NCBI GenBank assembly: GCA_015067995.1 | Contig: SVLJ01000003.1 | Location: forward strand, 124,001-188,000 | Length of the DNA: 64,000 nt | Direction of reading: 5' to 3' | From: Oscillospiraceae bacterium | GTDB taxonomy: Bacteria; Bacillota; Clostridia; Oscillospirales; Oscillospiraceae | Shown: positions 19,440-37,931 of the stretch, piece by piece | Numbering within the stretch: the stretch's first letter is position 1 | Layout: each line of letters starts with the position of its first letter | Made by a program: the position numbers and the translations under genes | Notes under the pieces: model-generated | Database searches by the model: none | Seen by the model: the letters and a program-made list of their open reading frames with translations, nothing else | Told to the model about the DNA's origin: nothing

Positions 19440-20639
19440 ATGGCCGTTGCAGGTATTATAACAGAGTACAATCCCCTGCACCGCGGACACCTGCTGCAGA
19501 TGGAGCGCACAAGGGCGATTCTGGGCGGGGAAACCGCCATCGTCTGCGCCATGAGCGGCAGCTTTGTGCAGCGGGGCGACTTCGCTCTGGTGCGCAAGCA
19601 TGCCCGGGCGGAGGCTGCGGTGCGCAGCGGCGCTGATCTGGTGCTGGAGCTGCCCCTGCCGTGGGCGGTGAGCTCTGCGGAGGGCTTCGCCCGGGGCGGC
19701 GTGGAGGTTCTCTCAGCCACCGGCGTGGTGACCCACCTGTCCTTCGGCAGCGAGTGCGGTGACGCGGCGGCACTGCGGGAGACGGCCGCCCTGCTGGATT
19801 CGGAGGCGTACCGGGCGTCGCTGCGGCGTCGGCTGGATGCGGGCATGTCCTATGCCGCATGCCGTCAGACCGCGGCGGCGGAGCTGCTGGGGACGGAGAA
19901 GGCCGCGCTGCTGGCGGGGCCCAACAACAATCTTGGTGTGGAATACTGCCGTGCGCTGGCGCGGCAGGAAAGTGCGATACAGCCTGTTGCCGTGCTGCGG
20001 CAGGGCGCGGCTCATGACGGCGCTGCGGTGGACGGCATCGCCTCGGCTTCTGCGGTGCGTGCCCTTGTGCGGCAGGGACAGCGGGAGCAGGCGCTGGCGC
20101 TGATGGCTCCTGCCATGGCGGATATCTATCTGCGGGAAGAGGCCGCACTGCGTGCCCCGGTGCTGGCGGAGACCTGTGAGCGTGCCGTGCTGGCCCGGCT
20201 GCGCTCCATGACCGAGGCGGAGTTTTCCGCTCTGGACGAGGGCGGCGAGGGCCTTGCCAACCGGTTCTGTGCTGCGGCGCAGTCGGCGGCCACACTGACG
20301 GAGCTTTTGGATGCGGTGAAGACCAAGCGGTATGCCTATGCCCGTCTGCGGCGGATGGCATTGTGGGCGTATCTGGGCATCACGCCCGGCGAGCGTCCGG
20401 AGCGTGTGCCGTACCTGCGGGTGCTGGCCGCCAACCAGCGGGGACGCGCCCTGTTGGCACAGATGCGGAAAACGGCGTCTTTGCCCATCGTCACCAAGCC
20501 TGCGGAGGTGCGCAGAATGTCGGCGGAGGTGCAGCGTGTGTTTGCATTGGAGGCCCGTGCCACTGATTTGTACACCCTGGCCTATCCGAAGCTGGCGGCT
20601 GCCGGCTCCGAGTGGACGGAAAGTCCTGTGATTTTGTAA
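19440..20639 (+). CDS. tmcAL: tRNA(Met) cytidine acetate ligase TmcAL
   Basis: A 399-residue YlbM/TmcAL protein. The N-terminal nucleotidyltransferase domain has IITEYNPLHRGHLLQM, whose HRGH is the (H)xGH adenylation motif, followed by AMSGSFVQRGDFAL, ELPLPWAVSSAEGFARGGV and GPNNNLGVEYCRAL. It activates acetate with ATP and acetylates C34 of elongator tRNA-Met. The ATG at 19440 follows GGGAGGAATTAC. It is divergent from ackA, which produces acetate; the pairing is suggestive. The C-terminal half is helical. Confidence 0.93.
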   Translation: MAVAGIITEYNPLHRGHLLQMERTRAILGGETAIVCAMSGSFVQRGDFALVRKHARAEAAVRSGADLVLELPLPWAVSSAEGFARGGVEVLSATGVVTHLSFGSECGDAAALRETAALLDSEAYRASLRRRLDAGMSYAACRQTAAAELLGTEKAALLAGPNNNLGVEYCRALARQESAIQPVAVLRQGAAHDGAAVDGIASASAVRALVRQGQREQALALMAPAMADIYLREEAALRAPVLAETCERAVLARLRSMTEAEFSALDEGGEGLANRFCAAAQSAATLTELLDAVKTKRYAYARLRRMALWAYLGITPGERPERVPYLRVLAANQRGRALLAQMRKTASLPIVTKPAEVRRMSAEVQRVFALEARATDLYTLAYPKLAAAGSEWTESPVIL

Positions 20640-25425: not shown

Positions 25426-26619
25426 TTATTCCTGCCAGGTCAGGGCAAAGGCGGCAAACAGCGCCGCACTGAGGGGCAGGGTGGACTCATCAATGTCGAA
25501 TTTCGGGTGGTGATGGGGATAGCAGGGACCGTGGGCAGGCCGTGAGCAGACGTAGAAATGCATGGCCGGGACAAGATCGGCGTAGCGGGCGAAATCCTCG
25601 CCGCCGGGTGCCACCGGGTCATAGAGGCGAATGCGCTCCGCCGGAACCAACTGTGCGGCGGTGGCGGCGAACTTGTCGTGCATGGTGCGGTCGATCTCTG
25701 TGGCCATCAGGTCGATGGTGGTTTCGAAATCCACGCTGCCCCGCAGCATGGCGGCGGTGGACTGACAGATTTCCCGTACCCGCTGCGCGTACCGGCGGTG
25801 CTGCTCCCGGCGGAAGCCCCGGACAGTGCCTTCAATGGTGCAGGTGTCGGAGATGATGTTGTTGCGCTGGCCGCCGTGAATGGTGCTGACGGAGAGGATG
25901 GCGTTGTCGTTGGGGTCACGCTCCCGGTTCATGATCTCCTGCAGATTCATCACGGCGGAGCAGGCCATAAACACCGCGTCCACGCCCAGCTGCGGCGTGC
26001 AGACATGGGCGCTTTTCCCCCGGAAGACGGCGCGGAAGGAGAAAATGTTGGCGGAGTCCGGCTGGTGGGTGAACACCACATCGCCGGTTTGGTACTGCTC
26101 GCCCATGATGTTGCCGGTGTGGAAGCCGATGATGGCGTCCACACGGGGATTCTCCATGACGCCGTCGGCCAGCATGGCTCTGGCACCGCCGTCACCCTCC
26201 TCAAAGGGCTGGAAGAGTACCTTCACGCTGCCGGTAAGCTGTTCCCGCATGTCCCACAGCAGCTTGGCGGCGCCCAGACCCGCCGCCGTGTGGGCGTCGT
26301 GTCCGCAGGCGTGCATGCTGCCGTTGGTGGCGGCAAAGGGCAGACCGGTTTCCTCCCGGATGGGCAGGGCGTCGCAGTCCACCCGGATGGCAAGGCACTT
26401 GCCGGGCTTTGCGCCGTAAATGGTGGCGGTGACGCCGTGTCCTCCCACACCGGAACGGATGTCGGGTATGCCGAAGGAGGCAAGGGTGTCGCAGATGTAT
26501 TGCTCCGTCAGGGGCGTGTCCATCCGCAGCTCCGGATTTTGATGAATGTGCCGCCGCCATGCGGTGAGGGAATCGGCCAGATCGTTGGCGCGGGTGAGAA
26601 TTTCCTGATAAAGAGACAT
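25426..26619 (-). CDS. M20D family amidohydrolase (hippurate/N-acyl-amino-acid hydrolase type)
   Basis: A 397-residue zinc peptidase of the M20D branch. HIHQNPELRMDT is the branch N-terminal block, and MHACGHDAHTA carries two metal ligands. FQPFEEGDGGARAML contains the acidic ligand region, GFHTGNIMG the next His, and VAPGGEDFARY the C-terminal active-site part. It probably removes acyl groups from amino acids in the cytoplasm; the acyl group is not predictable. It follows the LysR gene at an 18-base distance, so the two are co-transcribed. Confidence 0.9.
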   Translation of the reverse strand: MSLYQEILTRANDLADSLTAWRRHIHQNPELRMDTPLTEQYICDTLASFGIPDIRSGVGGHGVTATIYGAKPGKCLAIRVDCDALPIREETGLPFAATNGSMHACGHDAHTAAGLGAAKLLWDMREQLTGSVKVLFQPFEEGDGGARAMLADGVMENPRVDAIIGFHTGNIMGEQYQTGDVVFTHQPDSANIFSFRAVFRGKSAHVCTPQLGVDAVFMACSAVMNLQEIMNRERDPNDNAILSVSTIHGGQRNNIISDTCTIEGTVRGFRREQHRRYAQRVREICQSTAAMLRGSVDFETTIDLMATEIDRTMHDKFAATAAQLVPAERIRLYDPVAPGGEDFARYADLVPAMHFYVCSRPAHGPCYPHHHPKFDIDESTLPLSAALFAAFALTWQE

Positions 26620-27579: not shown

Positions 27580-27748
27580 CGCCGTTCCACCTCCTTTTTC
27601 CAGTGATAAAGATATTATAACACCTGATAATACGCATGCCAACAGGATGAGTTATTTGTTTTTCTGATATTTAACATCGAAAACCTTGGCTTGCTGCCGG
27701 CGGGAGCGGGGAGTACAATGGGAGAAAAATCATACGGAGGTGACACGT

Positions 27749-28912
27749 ATGTCATTGACATTTAACAGCCGGGTGTGTAATCTGGAAGCATCAGCATCCA
27801 TTGCATTGATGGAGAAGGCACGGCAGCTGAAAGCACAGGGAGTGGACGTGATCTCTCTGGCCACCGGTGAGCCGGATTTTGATACACCGGAATGCGCCGC
27901 CGAGGCGGGCATTGCGGGCATTCGGGATGGAAAAACGCATTATGTAAACGGACGCGGCATTCCTGCTCTGCGGGAGCGGCTTTCCCGCAAGCTTCAAGAG
28001 GAGAATGGACTTGCGTACACACCGGAGGAAATTCTGGTGACGCCCGGTGCGAAATATGCAATTTTCGCAACGTTATTTACACTTTTGTCGCCCGGTGATG
28101 AGGTCATCATCCTGAATCCCTGCTGGGTCAGCTACGGCGCAATGACAGAGCTGGCAGGCGGTGTTCCGATTTATGTAAACCTATCCGAGGAGGATGGCTA
28201 CGCCATCACACAGGAGAAGCTGGAACCCTACATCACGGAGAAGACGAAGCTGCTGCTGCTCAACACCCCCAACAATCCCACCGGCCGCGCCCTGACACAG
28301 CAGGAGGCGGAGATGCTGCGGACGCTGGCGCTGGAGCATGATTTTTACATCCTGTCCGACGAGATCTACGAGAAGGTTCTCTTTGACGGACGGCGGCACA
28401 TCAGCATTGGCGCGCTGCCGGACATGTATGACCGTGTCATCACTGTCAACGGCCTGTCCAAGTGCGCCGCCATGACCGGCTGGCGTGTGGGTTATCTGGC
28501 GGCGGCACGCCCCATCGTGGACATGATCTACATGTTCTATCAGCATACCCTCACCTGCATCGGTGAGTTCGCCCAGCTGGCGGCACTGGAGGCGCTGGAG
28601 CATCCGGAGGAATTTGACCGGATGACGGAGAGCTACCGCATCCGGCGTGACCTGTGGCAGCAGCGGATGAGCCGCATTCCGGCGGTGCGCTGCCTGCGCG
28701 CGGAGGGCACCTTCTACGGTTGGATGCGCATTGATAAGGACGGCATGAGTTCCGGTGATATCGCTGCGTATCTGCTGGAGCGGGCACAGGTGGTGCTGGT
28801 GCCGGGCAATGCCTACGGCGAAAAGGAACAGCCCTATGTACGTGTATCGCTGGCCACCGCCGCGGAGGATCTCGTCCGTGCGGCAGATCGGCTGGAAGCG
28901 GTACTGCGGTGA
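27749..28912 (+). CDS. class I/II pyridoxal phosphate aminotransferase (aspartate aminotransferase-like)
   Basis: A 387-residue fold-type I aminotransferase. SLATGEPDFDTPE and the THYVNGRGIPALRE block are typical of subgroup I-gamma. NTPNNPTGRAL, SDEIYEKV and the PLP lysine in SKCAAMTGWRVGYLA follow in order. The ATG at 27749 has GGAGGTGACACGT upstream. It transfers amino groups between amino acids and 2-oxo acids; the preferred substrate is not evident. Its stop overlaps the next gene's upstream region, and an M20 peptidase follows, which suggests use of amino acids liberated from peptides. Confidence 0.92.
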   Translation: MSLTFNSRVCNLEASASIALMEKARQLKAQGVDVISLATGEPDFDTPECAAEAGIAGIRDGKTHYVNGRGIPALRERLSRKLQEENGLAYTPEEILVTPGAKYAIFATLFTLLSPGDEVIILNPCWVSYGAMTELAGGVPIYVNLSEEDGYAITQEKLEPYITEKTKLLLLNTPNNPTGRALTQQEAEMLRTLALEHDFYILSDEIYEKVLFDGRRHISIGALPDMYDRVITVNGLSKCAAMTGWRVGYLAAARPIVDMIYMFYQHTLTCIGEFAQLAALEALEHPEEFDRMTESYRIRRDLWQQRMSRIPAVRCLRAEGTFYGWMRIDKDGMSSGDIAAYLLERAQVVLVPGNAYGEKEQPYVRVSLATAAEDLVRAADRLEAVLR

Positions 28913-28926
28913 AAGGAGTACAGACC

Positions 28927-29544
28927 GTGAACTATCAGAGATTTCTGGAAGCGCCCACCGGCAACATCTGCGATGCCAACGGCGGACGAGGCGTTATGGA
29001 TGCGGGCATCCACCCGCTGGACAGACACATGCAGCTGGCGGGCCGTGCCCTGACGGTGGCCTGTGCCGCCGGTGACAACCTTACCATCCACAAGGCGGTG
29101 ATGCTGGCGCAGCCGGGTGATGTGCTGGTGATCAACTGCGGCGGCTATCTCAATGCCGGTGTCTTCGGCGAGATGCTGGCGCTGTCCTGCATGGCCAAGG
29201 GTATTGCCGGCGTGGTCATCGACGGCAGCTGCCGGGATGTCAACGACCTCGTTGAACTGGGTTTTCCCACCTTCGTCCGGGGCGTCAATCCCCGTGGCAC
29301 CATCAAGGATACCTGCGGCGCGGTGGGCGGCGAGGTGCTGTGCGGCGGCGTCACCGTCCGGGCAGGCGACATCGTGGTGGGTGACTGCGACGGTGTGGTG
29401 GTGATCCCCCGGGAGGAAGCGGATGTGATTCTGGACAAGGCACTGGCCAAGAAGCAGCGTGAGGACGAGATGCGTCCGCTGCTGCGTGCCGGCGGCACCA
29501 CGGCGGAGCTGCTGGGACTGATGGATAAACTGGGACTTTCATAA
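28927..29544 (+). CDS. RraA-like protein (HMG/CHA aldolase or oxaloacetate decarboxylase family)
   Basis: A 205-residue RraA-fold protein. It has TGNICDANGGRGVMDAGI, the AGRALTVACAAGDN substrate loop, VLVINCGGYLNAGVFGEMLA and GVVIDGSCRDVNDL; the latter contains the Arg-Asp pair that binds metal and substrate in class II HMG aldolases. Family members cleave 4-hydroxy-4-methyl-2-oxoglutarate or decarboxylate oxaloacetate. The GTG at 28927 with AAAGGAG is preferred over the GTG at 28909 that overlaps the aminotransferase. In this operon it may process a 2-oxo acid made by the aminotransferase. Confidence 0.82.
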   Translation: MNYQRFLEAPTGNICDANGGRGVMDAGIHPLDRHMQLAGRALTVACAAGDNLTIHKAVMLAQPGDVLVINCGGYLNAGVFGEMLALSCMAKGIAGVVIDGSCRDVNDLVELGFPTFVRGVNPRGTIKDTCGAVGGEVLCGGVTVRAGDIVVGDCDGVVVIPREEADVILDKALAKKQREDEMRPLLRAGGTTAELLGLMDKLGLS

Positions 29545-29560
29545 TCAGGAGGAATATAGA

Positions 29561-30694
29561 ATGGAACTGGAACGGAAGGAATTTCTGGACAAACTGGCTG
29601 AGATCGTGAATATCGACAGCGGCAGCCGCAGTCCTGCGGGCATCACCGCCGTGGCGGATGTCATTGCAGGCTGGTTTACAGATCTTGGCTGGCAGGTGAC
29701 ACGCCATAACGTGGGCGACGAGACCGGCCCTCTGCTGCAGATTACCAACAAGGGCACGGACAAGTACGATGTTGCGCTGCTGGGACACATGGATACCGTC
29801 TTCAACGACGGCACCGTGGCGGAGCGTCCCTTCCGTGTGGAGGGCGACACGGCCTACGGCCCCGGTGTGGCGGATATGAAGAACGGCCTTGTGGCCATGT
29901 ATTTTGCCGCCCGTGAACTGTCCAAAGATCCGGAGAACAGTCCTGCGGTGTGCATGCTCTTCAACCCGGACGAGGAGATCGGCGCCCGCTATTCCAAGCA
30001 CAAGATGATCGAGATCGTGGCCAATAGCCCCTTGCTCTACGTGCTGGAGGGCTCCGGTACCCACGGCAGCACCCACTGCCACGCCCGGAAGAGCATCACC
30101 GGCTTCAACGCCATTTTCCACGGCCAGTCCGCCCACGCCGGCAACATGCTGGACCGTTCCGGCGCTTCCGCCATTCTGGAGGCTGCCCGCTGGACGGAGA
30201 CCATCTGCGGCTGGGTGGATCGTGAGAAGCAGATCACAGCCAACGTGGGCATCATTCAGGGCGGCCTCGCCGCCAACGTGGTGCCGGACTATGCCCGAAT
30301 CCGTGCCGAGTTCCGCACGGTGACCATGGAGGATCAGCAGCGTCTTATGGAAAAGGTGGAGCACATGGCCGCCAATCCCATGACCCCCGGTGTCACCGTG
30401 GAGCTGGAGGATGTGGGCGGCAGACCGCCCCTGAATCCCAGCGATGCCACTCTGGCAGAGATTGAGCGCGCCACCAGAGTGGCCGCCTCTGTGGGTCAGG
30501 AGTTCAGGGTAAAGGCCCGCGGCGGTGTGTCCGATGCCAACACCATCTGCGCCGCACTGCCCCACATTGCCTGTCTGGACGGCATGGGCCCCGCCGGCAG
30601 CAACGCCCATTCTCCCGAGGAGTATCTGGAGATCAACAGCTGTCTGCCCTGTGTGGAGCTGCTGGTGGCTCTGCTGCTGGATCTGAAAAAGTAA
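29561..30694 (+). CDS. M20 family metallopeptidase (CPG2/ArgE type)
   Basis: A 377-residue M20 peptidase. LLGHMDTVFNDG holds the first metal His and catalytic Asp, GPGVADMKNG the bridging Asp, FNPDEEIGARYSKHKM the catalytic Glu pair, and the dimerisation lid has GQSAHAGNMLDRS. The last His region is AGSNAHSPEEYL. It resembles glutamate carboxypeptidase. AGGAGGAA precedes the ATG. It is the third gene of the plus-strand set that starts with the aminotransferase, and is likely cytosolic. Confidence 0.92.
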   Translation: MELERKEFLDKLAEIVNIDSGSRSPAGITAVADVIAGWFTDLGWQVTRHNVGDETGPLLQITNKGTDKYDVALLGHMDTVFNDGTVAERPFRVEGDTAYGPGVADMKNGLVAMYFAARELSKDPENSPAVCMLFNPDEEIGARYSKHKMIEIVANSPLLYVLEGSGTHGSTHCHARKSITGFNAIFHGQSAHAGNMLDRSGASAILEAARWTETICGWVDREKQITANVGIIQGGLAANVVPDYARIRAEFRTVTMEDQQRLMEKVEHMAANPMTPGVTVELEDVGGRPPLNPSDATLAEIERATRVAASVGQEFRVKARGGVSDANTICAALPHIACLDGMGPAGSNAHSPEEYLEINSCLPCVELLVALLLDLKK

Positions 30695-30743: not shown

Positions 30744-31805
30744 TTACAAATCACACAGCTGGCGGCGCAGCTGGGTGGAAAAGTCTGTGAGCCTGGTCTC
30801 AATATCCGGCAGGGACAGCGCCTCACCGGCGGTATTGGCTGTCTCCATAAGGCAGGCGCCGGCGGGGAGATAGAAGCCCTTGTTCATGCACATGGCGCTG
30901 ACCACCTGAGAAGCCACGATGTCGCCGCCGGAGTAGCCGGACACCACGATGGCATACACCGCCTTGTCGGTGAAGGGGGTGGTGCGGTACAGGGCGGTGA
31001 GGCGGTTGATGGCCGCCGTCAGATTGGCAGAGAGGGCGTCGTTGTAGTTTGGGCACAGCAGCACCACCGCGTCGGCGTCCCGGACGGCGGGGTATACCTC
31101 CCGCACCATAACGCCGCCGTAGAAGCACTCGCCCTTTTCACCGAAGTGGAGGCACATGGTGTAGGGACACCCGGCGCAGTCCTCCATGGTGCCGTTGCGC
31201 AGACCGATCTCCGTAATGTCGCAGCAGTCCTCCAGCTGGGGGCGGACATGCATCCACAGCGCCATGGTGTTGGAGGTGCGGTGGCTGGAGGCGTGGAGCA
31301 CCGTCACTCTGGGGCGGCGGTGCTTCGGCGGTGCAAAGTCCCCGATGCGGCGCACCAGATCGGCGGCAGCCCGACGGTAGGCATCCTCCAGTCCGCAGCC
31401 GGCGTTTTTGGCCTGTACGGTGAAGTTCCGCAGGTCGCTTGTACCCTCCACCAGAGGTCTGCCAATGAGTGTACAGTCGGATTGGTTTACAGCCAGTGCC
31501 AGCTCCCGGGCGGTGGATTTGGTGTAGAGATCGCCGCCGTCCACCAGAATACCGGCGGCGCTGCCGGTGAGCAGGTTCTTCTCCCGGCGCAGCTGACCCA
31601 GCAGACGGTACAGCCCTTCGTTCTGTCCCGCGTCGTCCAGCGACACGGCGAAGAGAATGCGGCGGTTATGGAGGGGAGCGGAAATTTCCTTCAGCAGCTC
31701 GGCCTCTGTGCCGGCCAGGGCAGACTCCAGGATTCCGGAAAAACGGGGGGAGAGCCGGTGGCCGGGGCAGATCACAGTCAGTGGAGTATGGGACATAGAG
31801 ATCAC
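30744..31805 (-). CDS. flavodoxin-like NAD(P)H-dependent oxidoreductase (354-codon, two-part)
   Basis: A 353-residue protein. The first ~165 residues (MISMSHTPLTVICPGHRLSPRFSG ...) have no flavin motif I recognise, although ICPGHRLSPRFSGIL resembles a decayed phosphate loop. The second part is a flavodoxin/FMN-reductase domain: VTVLHASSHRTSNTMALWMHV is the FMN phosphate loop, DCAGCPYTMCLHFGEKGEC a cysteine segment like that of iron-sulfur flavoproteins, and VVLLCPNYNDALSANLTAAINRL the second flavin block. It is the last gene of the giant-protein operon. An electron-transfer role for that operon is an inference. Confidence 0.7.
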   Translation of the reverse strand: MISMSHTPLTVICPGHRLSPRFSGILESALAGTEAELLKEISAPLHNRRILFAVSLDDAGQNEGLYRLLGQLRREKNLLTGSAAGILVDGGDLYTKSTARELALAVNQSDCTLIGRPLVEGTSDLRNFTVQAKNAGCGLEDAYRRAAADLVRRIGDFAPPKHRRPRVTVLHASSHRTSNTMALWMHVRPQLEDCCDITEIGLRNGTMEDCAGCPYTMCLHFGEKGECFYGGVMVREVYPAVRDADAVVLLCPNYNDALSANLTAAINRLTALYRTTPFTDKAVYAIVVSGYSGGDIVASQVVSAMCMNKGFYLPAGACLMETANTAGEALSLPDIETRLTDFSTQLRRQLCDL

Positions 31806-31849: not shown

Positions 31850-33088
31850 TCAGATGATGGCGGCGAGATTGCGCTCCGTCTCCTGCAGGCGGCGGAACAG
31901 AGCGTCCGGCAGCGCCAGCGCCTCTGTCTCCAGACCCTGCCGGGTGTAGCGGTTGCGGCAGCCGAACCACACGCTGCCAAGGCACACGCTGCCGCAGTGC
32001 CACTGCCCCCGCAGCAGCAGCAGGATCTGCATGGCGCCGGAGGAGAGGGCGGGGGCAATGTAGGGCTTGAAGCCGATTTCCCGGATGCGGAGGTTGGCCT
32101 CCACCACTTCCTGCGTCAGCGCTCTGGAGAGCTCATCGTCATAGTGTTCGATGGAGTTGGCGATGACCAGATCGGCGCCGTGGGGGCCGAAGCTGCGTCC
32201 CTCCGTCAGGAAGGCGGCATAGGCGGGATTGGTCTTGGCCAGAGCGGCGGCGCGGGCGTTCATGACGCCCAGCCCCAGACCCTGCACCTGCTCGGCAAGG
32301 AGTCCCCTGCCGTCGAAGCTTCCGTTCTCGTCGGTGTTGGAGGCCAGCCATGCGGCCTTGCACAGTGGGTCAACGGGGTCGCTCATCACCAGAAACAGAC
32401 CGGAGAAATTCGCTCTCCGTGCCATCCGGGCGTAGTGTGCCACGATCTCGCGGTTGGCGTCAAACTGCGCCATGCGCACATCCTTTACGGCGCTGCCCAC
32501 GGCGGGGATGGAGCGGGTGGCGGCAAAGAGAAACACATCGCAGTCAAAGAGATGCTCCATATCCACAGGTACCACGTCCGGCAGAGCATCATACTCCCAC
32601 GGCAGGCTTACCTGACTCATCTCGGCGGTGTACCGCGCCACGGTGGCGGGGTTCAGGTCGCAGATGCCGATGGTGTGGAGGCAGTCGCCTCCCAGCAGCT
32701 TCAGACCCGTCAGCACCGTGCCGCCCACGTCGCCCACTGCCAGCAGGTGCAGACGGCGGCGTGCGGCTTTTTTGTCGGTGAAGGTCAGCGCCTCCTGCCA
32801 GCGGGGATCGCCGCCGTTGACGGCGGTGACCCGTCCCTCCGCCACGGCGGCTGCCAGCTTTGCCGGAACGTCGGCGGCAGGCAGACGGGCGGGGTCGAGA
32901 TAGGCAGCGCTTTCCGGGGCAGTCACCTGCGCCGGATGGGAGGGACGAAAGGCAATGCGGCCTGCGCTCTCCCGGATATGATGCCAGATCAGCTCGCCTG
33001 CCCAGTTTTCCGCGGCGGCGGGCAGAGGCAGACCGGCAGTCTGAGAGACCAGATGGCGGTGGCCCATAGAATAATGGTAGAAATCCAT
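31850..33088 (-). CDS. LDH/MDH-like Rossmann dehydrogenase homologue
   Basis: A 412-residue protein with an N-terminal region of about 110 residues (MDFYHYSMGHRHLVSQ ...) that I do not recognise. From about 115 it follows lactate/malate dehydrogenases: LLAVGDVGGTVLTGLKLLGG is the dinucleotide loop, GICDLN the ribose-binding Asp, DVFLFAATRSIPAVGS the next strand, FDANREIVAHYARMA the family helix, and LFLVMSDPVDPLCKAAW matches the VxSNPVD block with Ser-Asp for Ser-Asn. GRSFGPHG is where the catalytic His-Gly would be. It starts 13 bases after the giant gene, so the two are translationally coupled. Substrate unknown. Confidence 0.65.
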   Translation of the reverse strand: MDFYHYSMGHRHLVSQTAGLPLPAAAENWAGELIWHHIRESAGRIAFRPSHPAQVTAPESAAYLDPARLPAADVPAKLAAAVAEGRVTAVNGGDPRWQEALTFTDKKAARRRLHLLAVGDVGGTVLTGLKLLGGDCLHTIGICDLNPATVARYTAEMSQVSLPWEYDALPDVVPVDMEHLFDCDVFLFAATRSIPAVGSAVKDVRMAQFDANREIVAHYARMARRANFSGLFLVMSDPVDPLCKAAWLASNTDENGSFDGRGLLAEQVQGLGLGVMNARAAALAKTNPAYAAFLTEGRSFGPHGADLVIANSIEHYDDELSRALTQEVVEANLRIREIGFKPYIAPALSSGAMQILLLLRGQWHCGSVCLGSVWFGCRNRYTRQGLETEALALPDALFRRLQETERNLAAII

Positions 33089-33101: not shown

Positions 33102-36100
33102 TTATTCCAGAGAGTCCCGCATGCGCTGCAGCAGCCGAAGGTCTTCCTCCAGACAGGCGGAGGCCGCCAGATTGGGGTCGTAGCGCAGGCAGGCGCCCTT
33201 GTCGGGGGACAGGGGCAGGATCACCGCCTCGCTGAGGCGGGAGAGGGTCAGATTCCGGGCATAGCGGCTGCGGTAGGAGGTCTCCAGCGCCAGCAGGATA
33301 TCCCGGGAGTTCTCAATGCAGGTGCGGGAGAACCGTGAAACGGCGCTCTGTCCGCACTCGCGGAAGAACTTGGGGTAGGCGTAGGGCATGATGAGGTTGA
33401 TGGCCGGGGTCAGGCCGGGGACGGAGGGGACGGCATCGGCCACCGTGTCGCCGCCGATGAAGGGGTACATGGTGGATTCCACGAACCAGCAGCGCAGGTT
33501 GGGGATGAAGTACACGCAGTCGGCCTTGATGCCCCGCTCCTCCATCAGATCCTTGCCGCGTCCGCTCATGAGGCCCACCAGCACCCGATCCACGGGAACA
33601 TTGTACTTGCGCAGCAGCGGTTCCAGAACCTGCACGCGGGCGCCGGAGTGGAGCAGGTCGTCCACCAGGATCACCTCACGGCGGAAGGACAGGATGGTGC
33701 GGATCTGGGATTCCAGCGGTGCGTAACCGGGGAACTCCAGGATGGTGGAGCTCAGCAGGTCAGGGGTGAAGACCTTGTCGGTGTGGATGGTCTTGGTGAC
33801 GGTGTTGGGAATGGCGTTGCCCCGGAGGATCTTGCCGAAGGGGGCGCACATTTTCTTGCCCAGCACACGGGGATAGGTGGGTTCGGCAGGCACGCCGTTG
33901 ATCTCCACGATGCGCCGCACCAGCCGGTGATAGATCAACTCTGCGTTGAGGGACAGCACCGTAGTGCCGGGGTACAGCGCCGCCACAGACTGCTGGAACC
34001 GGGTGTGTGCCCTGCGCACCGCCTCCAGCACCAGCGGGTCGGAGGAGAAGGGCGCTTTCAGGGTAGTGGCCAGATTCTGGATCAGCGCCACGGGAGAACG
34101 CATGTCCGTCAGCATCAGGGGATGGCCGGGAACGGAATCCGGGGTATGCAGGAAGCCGGAGCGCAGCATCAGGGCGGTGGTCTTCTCGCTCTGTGCCTCT
34201 CCGGGAGCAAACACGGCGTAGCTGCAGTCGTCCCCCAGGGCACGGAACAGTGCTTCCGTCAGCAGCATCTGACTGATGTCGATGTTGCTGGCGGCGGTGG
34301 TGTTGGCGGTAGCGGATACGGTGTGCAGGCCGGTGATAAGACAGATGCGGCCTGCGGAATGGTCGCGGATATAGTCGGCGGCGTCGGCGTCGCCCAGCGC
34401 GTCGTAAAGACCGGTGGAGGTGACGGTGCGCATGGTCAGCACACCCTGTGTGAATACCGGGCCGTCAATGTCCTTGAGCACCACCATGGTGTCCCGGGGG
34501 TCCAACCGGAAGGCTCTGCCGGTGGCGGCGGCGATGGCGGCGGCCGCCTCCTGTCGTGCCGCCGTATCGTCAGGCGTCAGGCAGGAGAAGTCCAGATCGC
34601 CGGTGCGCAGCAGCCGCTTGTACTGTGGCTCGCGGAGATAGAGGCTGTTGCGGTAGATATAGTCCTGCACCGTGGGGTCGATGAGGTTGGAGATATCACG
34701 CCCCAGGTCGATGTTCTCGCGGATGCGGGTGGAGCTGATATCCTCCAGATGGGTAGCCAGCTGCAGCTGCAGCACGTTGCCCTGAATGCAGCTCAGATCC
34801 ACACTGGCGTCCGCGGCGTTGATGCTGGCGCGGCGGAACACGATGTGGTTGAGAGAGTGTACCGAGCCGGGAGACGGCTCTGCCTTGTAGGAGGAGGCAT
34901 TGGCTACCACGTCGCTGCCCACGCACAGGTACAGCTCCCGCTCGGCGAAGATATCCCGCAGAACGTTCAGATCGTCTGGGTTGGCCAGATTCACCGGAAT
35001 ATCATGGGGGAAGACGTACACATCGTACTCATCGGCCACGGACATGCTCACCAGCTGGCGGCGGATGAGACTGGGCTGTGCCTTTTTGGACCAGGAGAAC
35101 TCATCGATGGCCAGGTATACCTCGAAACCAAGGTCGCGGATGGCCTGTACGATGCCCTTATGGGACAGGGAGAAGGGGTCAAAGGTGCCGGGGAAAAATG
35201 CGGCCTTCTCCGGAATGGTAAAGTGGAAGGGACCGTCCTCAATGTCGTGGAGGACGATGAACCGGTACAGATGGCTCAGGGCGGAGGCGGTATAGAAGAA
35301 GGTGAGATCCTGCTCCCGGCTGCTGCGCAGCAGACACATGATCTTCTTGGCACAGAGGGTAAACAGGGCGGTCTTGTCCTGATAGCTGAGGATGGGAGAG
35401 GCGAACAGACCTTCGCCCACGATCCGCAGTGCGCTCTGCTGCACGGGACCCCGGGGCGCAGCCAGACCCTTCATCAGCAGGCCCGCCAGACGGCGGCGCC
35501 GCTGCTCCAGCACATTGGTGTCTTCTCCGAAGCGGGCGGCGTATTCCGCGTAGGATTCCAGCATGGAGCCCACGGCGTCCAGAGCGCCGCTGACCACGTT
35601 GGAGCTGGAGGAGGAGAGAAGACTCTCCATCTGGTCGATGACCTCGTCCAGCTCACGGGGCGTCAGCCACAGGGCGAAGCGCCCCAGATATTCGGGGATA
35701 TATTTGGACAGATCCGACTGGCCGGTTTCCAACGCCTTGGAAAGCTCCACGGCGATCTCGTTGCGGCGGTCGGGGGTCATGGAGGGTGCCAGCTTCAGCA
35801 GAGACTTACCGGCCATGCGGCGCACCACCACGTGCTCGCTGACCTTGATGAGGTTGGAGAAGTGAGTGGCAATGTGCAGCACGTTCTGATCGCCGCCGGT
35901 TCCCACCTGGTGGAGCAGATACTCCACGCCCAGTGCCTTCAGAATCCACGGCGTGGCGGTTTTCAGGTTGTCCAGAAAAACGGTGCTGACGGCGGCGGGA
36001 TCTGCCAGCCGCTTTGCAAGAGCCGTGGCGTCCAGCGCCAGCTCCCGGAACAGGCGCATCTGCAGGAACAGCAGAGGCGTGCTGTTCTCCACATCCGCGG

Positions 36101-37931
36101 CGTGTACGGCGCCCGCCATACGGCTGCGCAGCTCCAGACCCACGCCGGAGGATTTCAGCAGATGGGAGAACAGGTAAAGGGCGGCGGCCTTCTGCGGCAG
36201 ATCACCGATGGCCAGCCAGTGGGCGGCGAAATTGATCAGCAGTCGGCAGGTTTCCGGCGTGCAGTGCTGTATGGGGAGATTCACCACCGTGTCCATCAGG
36301 GCGAAAGCGGCGTCGTCTGCCGCGTCTGGATGCTCGTAATGGCGCAGCAGCTCCTCCAGGAATCTGGGAGCATCGGCCTTGTCGCATTCCCGCAGCACGT
36401 TGTCCACCACCAGCTTGGCGGTGTAGCGGATCTTACTGATCTGCACGGTGGTCAGCCGCCGGTCGGGGCGGATGAGCTTTTGCAGATAGTCCGCCCACAG
36501 GCGGAAGGGGAGATCCAACTCCGGATCGAGGTCGGCGTCGGCTGGCAGCTCCTTCTTGTAGCCGGAATGGAAGCGGGCCAGGATCCGGCCGATGAGGGTG
36601 GCAGCCTGACGGCGGATATCGCCGTCGGGATTCAGCAGCTGCTCATAGAGGAACTCCAGCGTCTGCATCTTCTGGGAGGAGGAGAGGTAGGTGAAGTATT
36701 CCTCAAACACGGAGATGTACGCCCGGAGCCGCCCCCACTCCTTTTCGCTGTGTGCGGCCTCCAGCACACTGGCAAACAGCTGGTCGTGGCTCAAACGGTG
36801 CATCAGGCGGATGTTGTGCTCTACGGCGCTGCGGCGCAGGGCTTCCACCAGCTGCAGGGGATTCATCAGGGCAGGGTCGGTGTGGGGAGCCGGAGTGCAT
36901 TCGCCGTCCAGCGCCACGTCCGTGCCCAGGAACTGCAGATATTTTTCAAAGTCCAGCAGCTTGGCATAGACGAAGCGGTAGCGCCGGGTCTTGGCGGCGT
37001 CCACATTGTCCAGCTTGCTGAGGATCACGTCAAAGGCGTCGGTGAGGGAGTAGATTTTGGCGATTTCTCCGCCGTTTTCGTCCCGCTCCTGCTTCACCCG
37101 GAAGTCGGCGTATACCAGAATCAGAGACTCGGCGGAAAGGTTTTCGATCTCCAGATCCCACACGGAGTGGTTGGCGGCAATGTGGCCGATGGCGTCCAGT
37201 CCCCGCTGGGTAAACCACTGGCTGGTATAGTGATAGTGCAGATACGGCACCCGCTCGCCGGGGCGGCAGCCGAACTTGCCGATGTCGTGGCCTGCGGCGG
37301 CGCCGCTGATGAGGGCCAGATCCACCAGACCGCCCCGGGCGGCGAAGGAACGTGCCACTGTCATGGAGACGTAGTGGACGCCGGCGATGTGATCCAGTGT
37401 GCGGAAGGGAGTTACCTCCCGCCCCAGACGCAGCATCTCGTAGATGTACTCCTGACGGAAGCGGGCCATGAACTGGCGGTACTCCGCCTCCACCATGGAG
37501 CCGGTCAGCTCCTCCTCACTGCAGAAGTCGAAATCCATCAGAGGATCAAAGGGCAGCTGCCGTCGCTCGGCGTCCAGCAGCACCTGCAGCACCTGCAGGA
37601 AGCATATCACGGCGTCCCGCTGTGCTTCGGTGTGGTCTGCATCTGTCCGCGCGAACATTCTGCCGCACACGGTCTGATAGGCGAAAAGCAGCCAGCCCGT
37701 GTCGGGCTCCGGCGCCATGGCGTCCAGCATGGGGCGGCAGACCTCCAGCACCGCGGCGCAGGAGAGCCGCTCCTTCAGGGGCAGCAGGGTGCGCAGGGCG
37801 GTGTTCCAGTCCACCTGCCGCAGCAGGCGGCGCACCTCCGTCTGGCGGATGCCCAGCACCCGCAGGAAGCTTTTTTCAGAAAACGCCTGTGTCAGCTGTG
37901 CGGCTGTTTCCCGGGCGATGTCTCGTTTCAT
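33102..37931 (-). CDS. giant multidomain protein: HD domain, helical repeats, NadD-like nucleotidyltransferase, phosphoribosyltransferase-like domain
   Basis: A 1609-residue soluble protein. After a helical N-terminus, an HD hydrolase domain lies at about 175-330: metal His near 186, His215-Asp216 in GHDIGKFG, then HYHYTSQWF and LVYADFRVK. Residues ~440-900 are leucine-rich helical pairs that look like HEAT repeats. A nucleotidyltransferase domain follows: FFPGTFDPFSLSHKG (about 912-926; final His kept, SLSH in place of HxGH) and ISSTRIRENI (1065-1074), the NadD/NMNAT signature. About 1150-1260 resembles a GNAT-type fold (LTEALFRALGDD, LMLRSGF). The C-terminal domain has the PRPP-loop pattern VILVDDLLHSGAR near 1421. 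HD plus NadD recalls the NadD-YqeK pairing. The ATG at 37931 has GGAGAGGGAGGGC upstream. Function unknown; nucleotide or NAD metabolism is an inference. Confidence 0.8.
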   Translation of the reverse strand: MKRDIARETAAQLTQAFSEKSFLRVLGIRQTEVRRLLRQVDWNTALRTLLPLKERLSCAAVLEVCRPMLDAMAPEPDTGWLLFAYQTVCGRMFARTDADHTEAQRDAVICFLQVLQVLLDAERRQLPFDPLMDFDFCSEEELTGSMVEAEYRQFMARFRQEYIYEMLRLGREVTPFRTLDHIAGVHYVSMTVARSFAARGGLVDLALISGAAAGHDIGKFGCRPGERVPYLHYHYTSQWFTQRGLDAIGHIAANHSVWDLEIENLSAESLILVYADFRVKQERDENGGEIAKIYSLTDAFDVILSKLDNVDAAKTRRYRFVYAKLLDFEKYLQFLGTDVALDGECTPAPHTDPALMNPLQLVEALRRSAVEHNIRLMHRLSHDQLFASVLEAAHSEKEWGRLRAYISVFEEYFTYLSSSQKMQTLEFLYEQLLNPDGDIRRQAATLIGRILARFHSGYKKELPADADLDPELDLPFRLWADYLQKLIRPDRRLTTVQISKIRYTAKLVVDNVLRECDKADAPRFLEELLRHYEHPDAADDAAFALMDTVVNLPIQHCTPETCRLLINFAAHWLAIGDLPQKAAALYLFSHLLKSSGVGLELRSRMAGAVHAADVENSTPLLFLQMRLFRELALDATALAKRLADPAAVSTVFLDNLKTATPWILKALGVEYLLHQVGTGGDQNVLHIATHFSNLIKVSEHVVVRRMAGKSLLKLAPSMTPDRRNEIAVELSKALETGQSDLSKYIPEYLGRFALWLTPRELDEVIDQMESLLSSSSSNVVSGALDAVGSMLESYAEYAARFGEDTNVLEQRRRRLAGLLMKGLAAPRGPVQQSALRIVGEGLFASPILSYQDKTALFTLCAKKIMCLLRSSREQDLTFFYTASALSHLYRFIVLHDIEDGPFHFTIPEKAAFFPGTFDPFSLSHKGIVQAIRDLGFEVYLAIDEFSWSKKAQPSLIRRQLVSMSVADEYDVYVFPHDIPVNLANPDDLNVLRDIFAERELYLCVGSDVVANASSYKAEPSPGSVHSLNHIVFRRASINAADASVDLSCIQGNVLQLQLATHLEDISSTRIRENIDLGRDISNLIDPTVQDYIYRNSLYLREPQYKRLLRTGDLDFSCLTPDDTAARQEAAAAIAAATGRAFRLDPRDTMVVLKDIDGPVFTQGVLTMRTVTSTGLYDALGDADAADYIRDHSAGRICLITGLHTVSATANTTAASNIDISQMLLTEALFRALGDDCSYAVFAPGEAQSEKTTALMLRSGFLHTPDSVPGHPLMLTDMRSPVALIQNLATTLKAPFSSDPLVLEAVRRAHTRFQQSVAALYPGTTVLSLNAELIYHRLVRRIVEINGVPAEPTYPRVLGKKMCAPFGKILRGNAIPNTVTKTIHTDKVFTPDLLSSTILEFPGYAPLESQIRTILSFRREVILVDDLLHSGARVQVLEPLLRKYNVPVDRVLVGLMSGRGKDLMEERGIKADCVYFIPNLRCWFVESTMYPFIGGDTVADAVPSVPGLTPAINLIMPYAYPKFFRECGQSAVSRFSRTCIENSRDILLALETSYRSRYARNLTLSRLSEAVILPLSPDKGACLRYDPNLAASACLEEDLRLLQRMRDSLE

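Follow-up and report, generated by a model that had tools for sequence, protein, structure and literature searches.

A conserved three-gene unit of anaerobic bacteria pairs a five-domain protein with two redox-type partners

What would a bacterium do with one polypeptide that carries signatures of opposed nucleotide chemistries? The question is raised by a 64,000-nucleotide stretch of Oscillospiraceae bacterium DNA (the window; positions 124,001 to 188,000 of contig SVLJ01000003.1, assembly GCA_015067995.1), whose minus strand has an open frame at 33102..37931 for a 1609-residue protein, here named BIG. An earlier note on the sequence had read this frame as a single protein joining an HD hydrolase, helical repeats, a NadD-like nucleotidyltransferase (NTase), an acyltransferase-like fold and a phosphoribosyltransferase (PRTase)-like end, and both the single frame and the domain list held up in structure models, fold searches and sequence comparison. 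The frame is not a chance one, since homologues with 61–70% identity were found in 24 of 36 other sampled genomes of the genus (22 whole-length, two cut by contig ends). Computed folds, conserved residues, the grouping of three genes, their co-occurrence and their gene context point to one co-inherited enzyme system made up of BIG, a dehydrogenase resembling lactate dehydrogenase (LDH) and a cysteine-rich flavoprotein. The partner genes and the glutamate/ammonium context of some loci had been missed by the earlier note. The features lie in the window as follows.

33102..37931, minus strand: BIG, 1609 codons plus stop, frame running from 37931 to 33102; full-length homologues both within the class and outside it
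36897..37484, minus strand: HD hydrolase domain, residues 150–345; predicted ligands H181, H215, D216, H232, H255 and D276
35226..36785, minus strand: HEAT-repeat solenoid, residues 383–902
34629..35216, minus strand: NadD/NMNAT-type NTase, residues 906–1101
34098..34598, minus strand: GNAT (acyltransferase) fold, residues 1112–1278; sequence conservation poor
33372..34064, minus strand: type I PRTase fold, about residues 1290–1520; altered phosphate loop VDDLLHxGxR
31850..33088, minus strand: dehydrogenase resembling LDH and malate dehydrogenase (MDH), 412 residues; starts 13 bases past the end of BIG
30744..31805, minus strand: flavin mononucleotide (FMN)-reductase-family protein, 353 residues; start at 31805 or 31775; cysteines 210, 213, 218 and 227

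AlphaFold models of the two halves of BIG each reached a predicted template modelling score (pTM) of 0.89. Together with fold searches, these models backed the HEAT solenoid, the NadD-type NTase, the GNAT fold and the type I PRTase fold, in agreement with the earlier guesses of helical repeats and an acyltransferase-like region. A whole-chain Pfam scan returned CTP_transf_like (residues 912–1073) as the sole family above cut-off. The motifs stand where they had been placed, namely H215-D216, GTFDPFSLSHKG (residues 915–926), ISSTRIRENI (1065–1074) and VDDLLHSGAR (1423–1432); the NTase and PRTase motifs fall within such folds, and domain order and motif residues are kept among homologues. Residue conservation is given for an alignment of 117 homologues, the window protein included and near-identical rows not thinned. 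Fragments L138–L141 were excluded from it (the genes of L138 and L140 are present as L169 and L170); L065, which contains a run of X, was retained in it and excluded from the alignment used for R177.

Homologues of BIG are widespread among anaerobes. Counting the source genome, BIG was present in 25 of 37 genomes of the genus sample and, with a match better than 1e-100, in 32 of 391 genomes of the class sample; at 1e-30 or better the phylum sample yielded 8 of 398, including the source genome and one already counted. Among 84,980 species, one genome each, 386 relatives were found. The best 80 of these 386 share 47–70% identity and are named as Oscillibacter, Dysosmobacter, Flavonifractor, Pseudoflavonifractor, Lachnospiraceae, [Clostridium] symbiosum, Fournierella and others, and distant members retain 33–39% identity over the full length. 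The plasmid collection held a single match (L152), in the 2.63 Mb Acetoanaerobium noterae record NZ_CP154629.1, which carries the three-gene module and, while filed as a plasmid, looks like a chromosome.

Both partner genes followed BIG on the same strand at 23 of 27 diverse loci (a set with two copies each from genomes G212 and G255), with other genes intervening at two of the 23 (L153 and L177). The four exceptions were L155, at a contig end, the second BIG copies L159 and L178, and L172. Of the best 80 loci, 74 could be given gene calls, the marker motif not being found in a long frame in the other 6; dehydrogenase-like genes were present in 60 of the 74 and flavoprotein-like genes in 51, many loci being short. 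The C-terminal domain of BIG was detected in 24 of 291 class genomes, a sample taken as common to the three scans from its equal size and the same handles among the matches listed. The dehydrogenase, at more than 450 bits, occurred in exactly the same 24 (Fisher p 1e-35, relatedness not corrected for), and two genomes lacking BIG had weak matches of 43–45 bits. The flavoprotein (1e-20) was found in 23 of the 24 and in none of the others; G296, which lacks it, has a contig end within its dehydrogenase gene. Within the genus sample the dehydrogenase accompanied BIG in 23 of 25 genomes and was absent from all 12 without BIG. Its retention is independent of linkage, since two genomes (G007 and G013) keep it on another contig, with BIG tens of kb from the end of its own. 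Moreover, pairwise distances of the three proteins correlated over 38 loci (r 0.81–0.90; 0 of 2000 permutations as high), a correlation that also reflects common descent. Gene calls showed no further gene recurring beside the module across distant lineages except nitrogen genes; other neighbours recur within lineages.

This pattern bears on a proposal that BIG is a stress or phage-defence effector related to Ter systems, which combine PRTases with nucleotide chemistry. An excerpt of PMC7824862 credits Ter systems with nucleotide-derived signals and predicts that the PRTases of the Ter biosynthetic module make a nucleotide-derived product, and one of the 27 diverse loci, L172, places BIG next to a Ter cluster (C-C_Bond_Lyase, YceG_bac, TerD). 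That locus, in genome G762, has BIG without adjoining partners, and TelA-like, P-type ATPase and HAD-like genes were also recognized there by eye. Among the 27 loci, TerD-like genes were confined to this one, and the partners of BIG differ from those of the Ter module. All three proteins matched 0 PADLOC families at E of 0.01 or less, the PHROGs and the phage library gave no match, and none of 36 pattern matches for BIG in a viral contig library was confirmed. A mobile or defence origin was rejected, the lone plasmid-collection match being the megabase-scale Acetoanaerobium replicon. Because library matches are lacking and BIG is co-inherited, with congruent distances, with two redox enzymes, the defence role suggested by the earlier note is not supported, and we regard it as very improbable.

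Both partners belong to redox-enzyme families. A dehydrogenase profile built from 37 sequences matched solved LDH/MDH structures (best E 1.6e-8), and R205, R279, H303 and M276 are invariant among the 37. We take R205, R279 and H303 to align with the substrate arginines and catalytic histidine of LDH, and M276 to occupy the position of the catalytic aspartate. The protein thus resembles L-lactate/malate dehydrogenases in its profile match, two arginines and histidine, and differs in about 100 extra N-terminal residues, in methionine for the catalytic aspartate and in scoring below the Pfam and NCBIfam cut-offs (Ldh_1_N, 17.4 versus 27 bits; NCBIfam L-LDH, 20.8 versus 303.55 bits). The flavoprotein is a member of PF03358 (74.4 bits, cut-off 24). 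Its four cysteines are invariant in 37 sequences and form a CX2CX4CX8C pattern that we liken to those of iron-sulfur flavoproteins; a sequence search of the PDB with its profile gave no useful match.

Turning to BIG itself, sequence conservation supports a predicted YqeK-like dinuclear HD hydrolase at residues 150–345. H181, H215, D216, H232, H255 and D276 are each present in 117/117 homologues, and they form the same H..HD..H..H..D set as the dinuclear YqeK ligands described in an excerpt of PMC8177086. PF01966 was matched at E of 1 or less by 32 of 40 BIG members (best E 9.6e-8), with the window protein under the cut-off (13.9 versus 22 bits, E 0.067). The domain is not of the HD-GYP type, as N254-H255 (117/117) replaces the HH pair and no GYP occurs in residues 150–345 of the window protein. 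A PDB sequence search with the HD profile found one weak match, the HD structure 1xx7 (E 0.0085), and profiles of this domain and of three HD proteins, for which the reference alignments were thin, aligned at 4% probability.

The NTase domain passed the gathering cut-off of the HIGH-superfamily family PF01467 (27.7 versus 21 bits), and fold comparison assigned it a NadD/NMNAT fold, with NadD/NMNAT the closest family. D918 and H924 are conserved in 117/117 homologues and S1066, S1067, I1070 and R1071 in 116/117 each. At the active site, S or T occupies position 921 in 117/117 and S or G position 923 in 116/117, giving [ST]x[SG]H in place of HxGH. The window sequence, SLSH, had been taken as a sign of a changed substrate. 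This did not stand, since a solved phosphopantetheine adenylyltransferase has TNGH at the aligned position, and the site change alone is no argument for a new substrate. A second HIGH-superfamily NTase gene (PF05636, HIGH_NTase1), presumably TmcAL-like, lies on the plus strand of the window at 19440–20639.

The precedent claimed for pairing HD and NTase domains was confirmed in the source genome itself, which encodes a canonical NadD-YqeK fusion of about 409 residues (L190; G000:C6:140668-141681) alongside BIG. Because of this fusion, BIG is not the sole NadD-type protein of its genome and is probably not the housekeeping NadD. The two proteins share a NadD-fold NTase and a dinuclear-type HD domain with the H..HD..H..H..D pattern in one chain. 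BIG differs in the reverse order of these domains, in the HEAT solenoid between them, in its added GNAT and PRTase domains and in falling far below the curated NadD cut-off (TIGR00482; 43.6 versus 112.45 bits). An excerpt of PMC9426524 describes the HD domain of such a YqeK-NadD fusion as a tested diphosphatase on nicotinic acid adenine dinucleotide and analogues. One reading of BIG is accordingly salvage or repair of pyridine nucleotides, in which it would act on nicotinamide mononucleotide, nicotinic acid mononucleotide, nicotinamide adenine dinucleotide (NAD) or damaged NAD(P)H and protect cells whose amino-acid fermentation is heavily NAD(P)-linked. The closeness of the NTase to NadD/NMNAT, the proofreading pair of NadD and HD diphosphatase tested in that excerpt, and partners from NAD(P)- or flavin-linked families all fit. 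The canonical fusion in the same genome and the wide miss of the NadD cut-off count against this reading, and nicotinate PRTases are, to our knowledge, not of the type I fold; we consider it doubtful. Citrate lyase ligase CitC likewise pairs a GNAT fold with a cytidylyltransferase-like HIGH-superfamily NTase fold in one protein; in BIG the order of the two is reversed, and HD, HEAT and PRTase parts are added.

For the C-terminal part, Foldseek ranked XPRT 1y0b first (E 1.1e-4, probability 1.00, TM by target 0.47), followed by UPRT and APRT, with E from 1.1e-4 to 2.4e-3 overall, which identifies a type I fold; the preceding domain had the GNAT fold (PF00583). Pribosyltran (PF00156) was matched at E of 1 or less by 23 of 40 BIG members (best E 0.0012), and the window protein fell below the gathering cut-off (10.9 versus 26.3 bits, E 0.28). 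N1376, T1377 and Q1409 are conserved in all 117 homologues, D1424, K1380 and R1432 in 116, H1383 in 115, G1430 in 114 and D1425 in 109; we liken K1380 and H1383 to an OPRT-type loop. The domain has the fold of XPRT, UPRT and APRT and the hydrophobic-DD start of the motif for phosphoribosyl pyrophosphate (PRPP). It departs from them in a phosphate loop of the form xGxR with the conserved R1432 and in being confined to BIG-type frames, no stand-alone relative being found in 291 class genomes, where every match, contig-cut copies included, lay in such a frame. Against four PRTases of the source genome, the profile of this domain aligned over the phosphate-loop strand only (probability 32%; thin reference alignments), and PDB sequence searches with the PRTase and GNAT profiles gave no useful match.

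Gene context links the module to glutamate and ammonium at some loci. A glutamate dehydrogenase (GDH) gene directly follows the flavoprotein gene on the same strand in 6 of 31 BIG genomes (G140, cut by the contig end, G167, G189, G212, G333 and G402) and lies about 4.5 kb further on in G276 and in G255, where the module is split over two contigs. Two GDH subfamilies occupy the same slot, those of G333 and G402 differing from the others, with 33% identity to the reference. Among the best 80 loci, GDH lies near BIG in five (L091, L100, L103, L108 and, on the other strand, L070); in the first four it is accompanied by a histidine kinase and a response regulator with a YcbB domain (Pfam check in L100). 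At L153 and L177, BIG and the dehydrogenase are separated by three glutamate synthase subunit genes and by an ammonium transporter (Amt) gene on the opposite strand; for L153 these identities were checked against Pfam. Only the position of GDH is informative, since a GDH-type match occurs in 59 of 63 genomes with or without BIG. P-II matches above 60 bits, a line set after the scores were seen, occurred in 2 of 31 genomes with BIG and in 15 of 32 without it; at the Pfam cut-off the contrast was weaker (13 of 31 versus 21 of 32). The BIG-negative genomes for the P-II and GDH counts were hand-picked from the class listing and are not a random sample.

These neighbours raise the possibility of a nitrogen-status regulator comparable to GlnD and GlnE, which hold transfer and removal domains in one chain and have Pol-beta-type NTases. 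The NTase would nucleotidylate a target protein such as GDH held by the HEAT solenoid, the HD domain would remove the group, and the GNAT and PRTase folds would sense metabolites. BIG likewise unites opposed transfer and hydrolase domains with a scaffold of a protein-binding type; some loci hold GDH, glutamate synthase, Amt, and the kinase and YcbB-domain response regulator; and the scarcity of strong P-II matches makes a different nitrogen regulator conceivable. The same scarcity argues against PII as the usual target, which we consider unlikely at the counts given above. Unlike GlnD and GlnE, however, BIG has an NTase of the NadD type, whose family acts on small phosphate esters. Its co-inheritance with two redox enzymes is more in keeping with a metabolic than a regulatory role, and GDH does not adjoin BIG at most loci, the window included. 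On balance we consider such a regulator doubtful.

We favour a tentative reading, at a probability of roughly 0.35, in which BIG is a multienzyme for the synthesis and turnover of either an NAD-like dinucleotide or a nucleotidylated metabolite, tied to the metabolism of glutamate and ammonia. It is preferred because PRTase, NadD and YqeK-type HD domains form a set for making and proofreading dinucleotides, joined by two co-travelling redox enzymes. The scheme that follows is inferred throughout, from the activity of each domain and the sequence of reactions to substrates and product. The HEAT solenoid would serve as the scaffold. The C-terminal PRTase would attach a phosphoribosyl group to an acceptor, and the NadD-like domain would then place a nucleotidyl group on the 5'-phosphate, yielding the NAD-like dinucleotide or nucleotidylated metabolite by the same two consecutive reaction types as in the building of NAD. 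The HD domain would split the pyrophosphate of a wrong or unwanted product, like YqeK fused to NadD, and the GNAT domain may acylate an intermediate or merely bind it. The dehydrogenase, with a site of the 2-oxo or 2-hydroxy acid type, and the flavoprotein may alter the redox state of the acceptor or consume the product, which would serve glutamate/ammonium metabolism. A narrower version casts the product as an NAD-like dinucleotide with a non-nicotinamide base, built by PRTase and NadD-like steps in one protein; its synthesis, proofreading and use by the three genes would serve the glutamate/ammonium redox metabolism of anaerobic Firmicutes. In that specific form the reading seems improbable.

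Several observations weigh against a multienzyme of this kind. Domain order by itself shows no pathway. HD-domain structures are not among the fold-search matches listed for the N-terminal half, whose model is confident and mostly helical; the lists were filled by the HEAT part, and the gap is no evidence against an HD fold. HD phosphohydrolases, according to an excerpt of PMC8177086, conserve an arginine that typically precedes the first ligand histidine by three residues; it is not kept in BIG, where the nearest, R177, lies four before H181 and is N, H or T in other homologues. GNAT Pfam matches were obtained in just 3 of 40 BIG members, and the domain is poorly conserved in sequence. In the PRTase domain, residue 1429 is variable (S, P, K, T, H or D) and R1432 presumably takes the place of the T common in type I PRTases; given this unusual phosphate loop, the domain may not use PRPP. 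BIG occurs without the dehydrogenase in two genus genomes, G002 (56% complete) and G028 (90% complete), and the extra copies L159 (G212) and L178 (G255) lack adjoining partners, which are encoded elsewhere in both genomes. No nitrogen gene adjoins the module in the window or at most BIG loci. All eight class genomes with GDH adjoining the module or about 4.5 kb from it belong to one family, f45, so that one event may be counted several times. Another reading is of a protein whose sole enzymes are the HD and NTase domains, with PRTase and GNAT folds degenerate and serving as ligand sensors or structure; the altered PRTase phosphate loop and the weak Pfam scores of both domains are in its favour. 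Conservation of D1424, D1425, K1380 and H1383 is nevertheless at the level expected of catalytic residues, and we find degeneracy quite doubtful.

Further along the window, aminotransferase, RraA-like and M20 peptidase genes stand in a row on the plus strand at 27686–30694 and another M20 peptidase gene lies on the minus strand at 25426–26619; the row is perhaps a small peptide or amino-acid catabolic cluster.

Each fold of BIG is known. What appears new is the composition of the system, in that the five-domain architecture and the three-gene unit match no PADLOC or PHROG model and no description of either was found in searches of open-access PMC papers. BIG and its partners thus seem to make up an enzyme system conserved among anaerobic bacteria and not previously described. 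If the multienzyme reading is true, a broad group of anaerobes, comprising relatives of Oscillibacter and Flavonifractor, Lachnospiraceae, [Clostridium] symbiosum and Acetoanaerobium, would share a conserved nucleotide chemistry carried out by three proteins, one that we could assign to no known system. Either a nucleotide cofactor or signal of a new kind would then come to light, or a novel control of glutamate metabolism. Co-inheritance of the three genes and GDH synteny in some lineages make the proposal directly testable, with a defined enzyme set, predicted catalytic residues and a metabolic neighbourhood.

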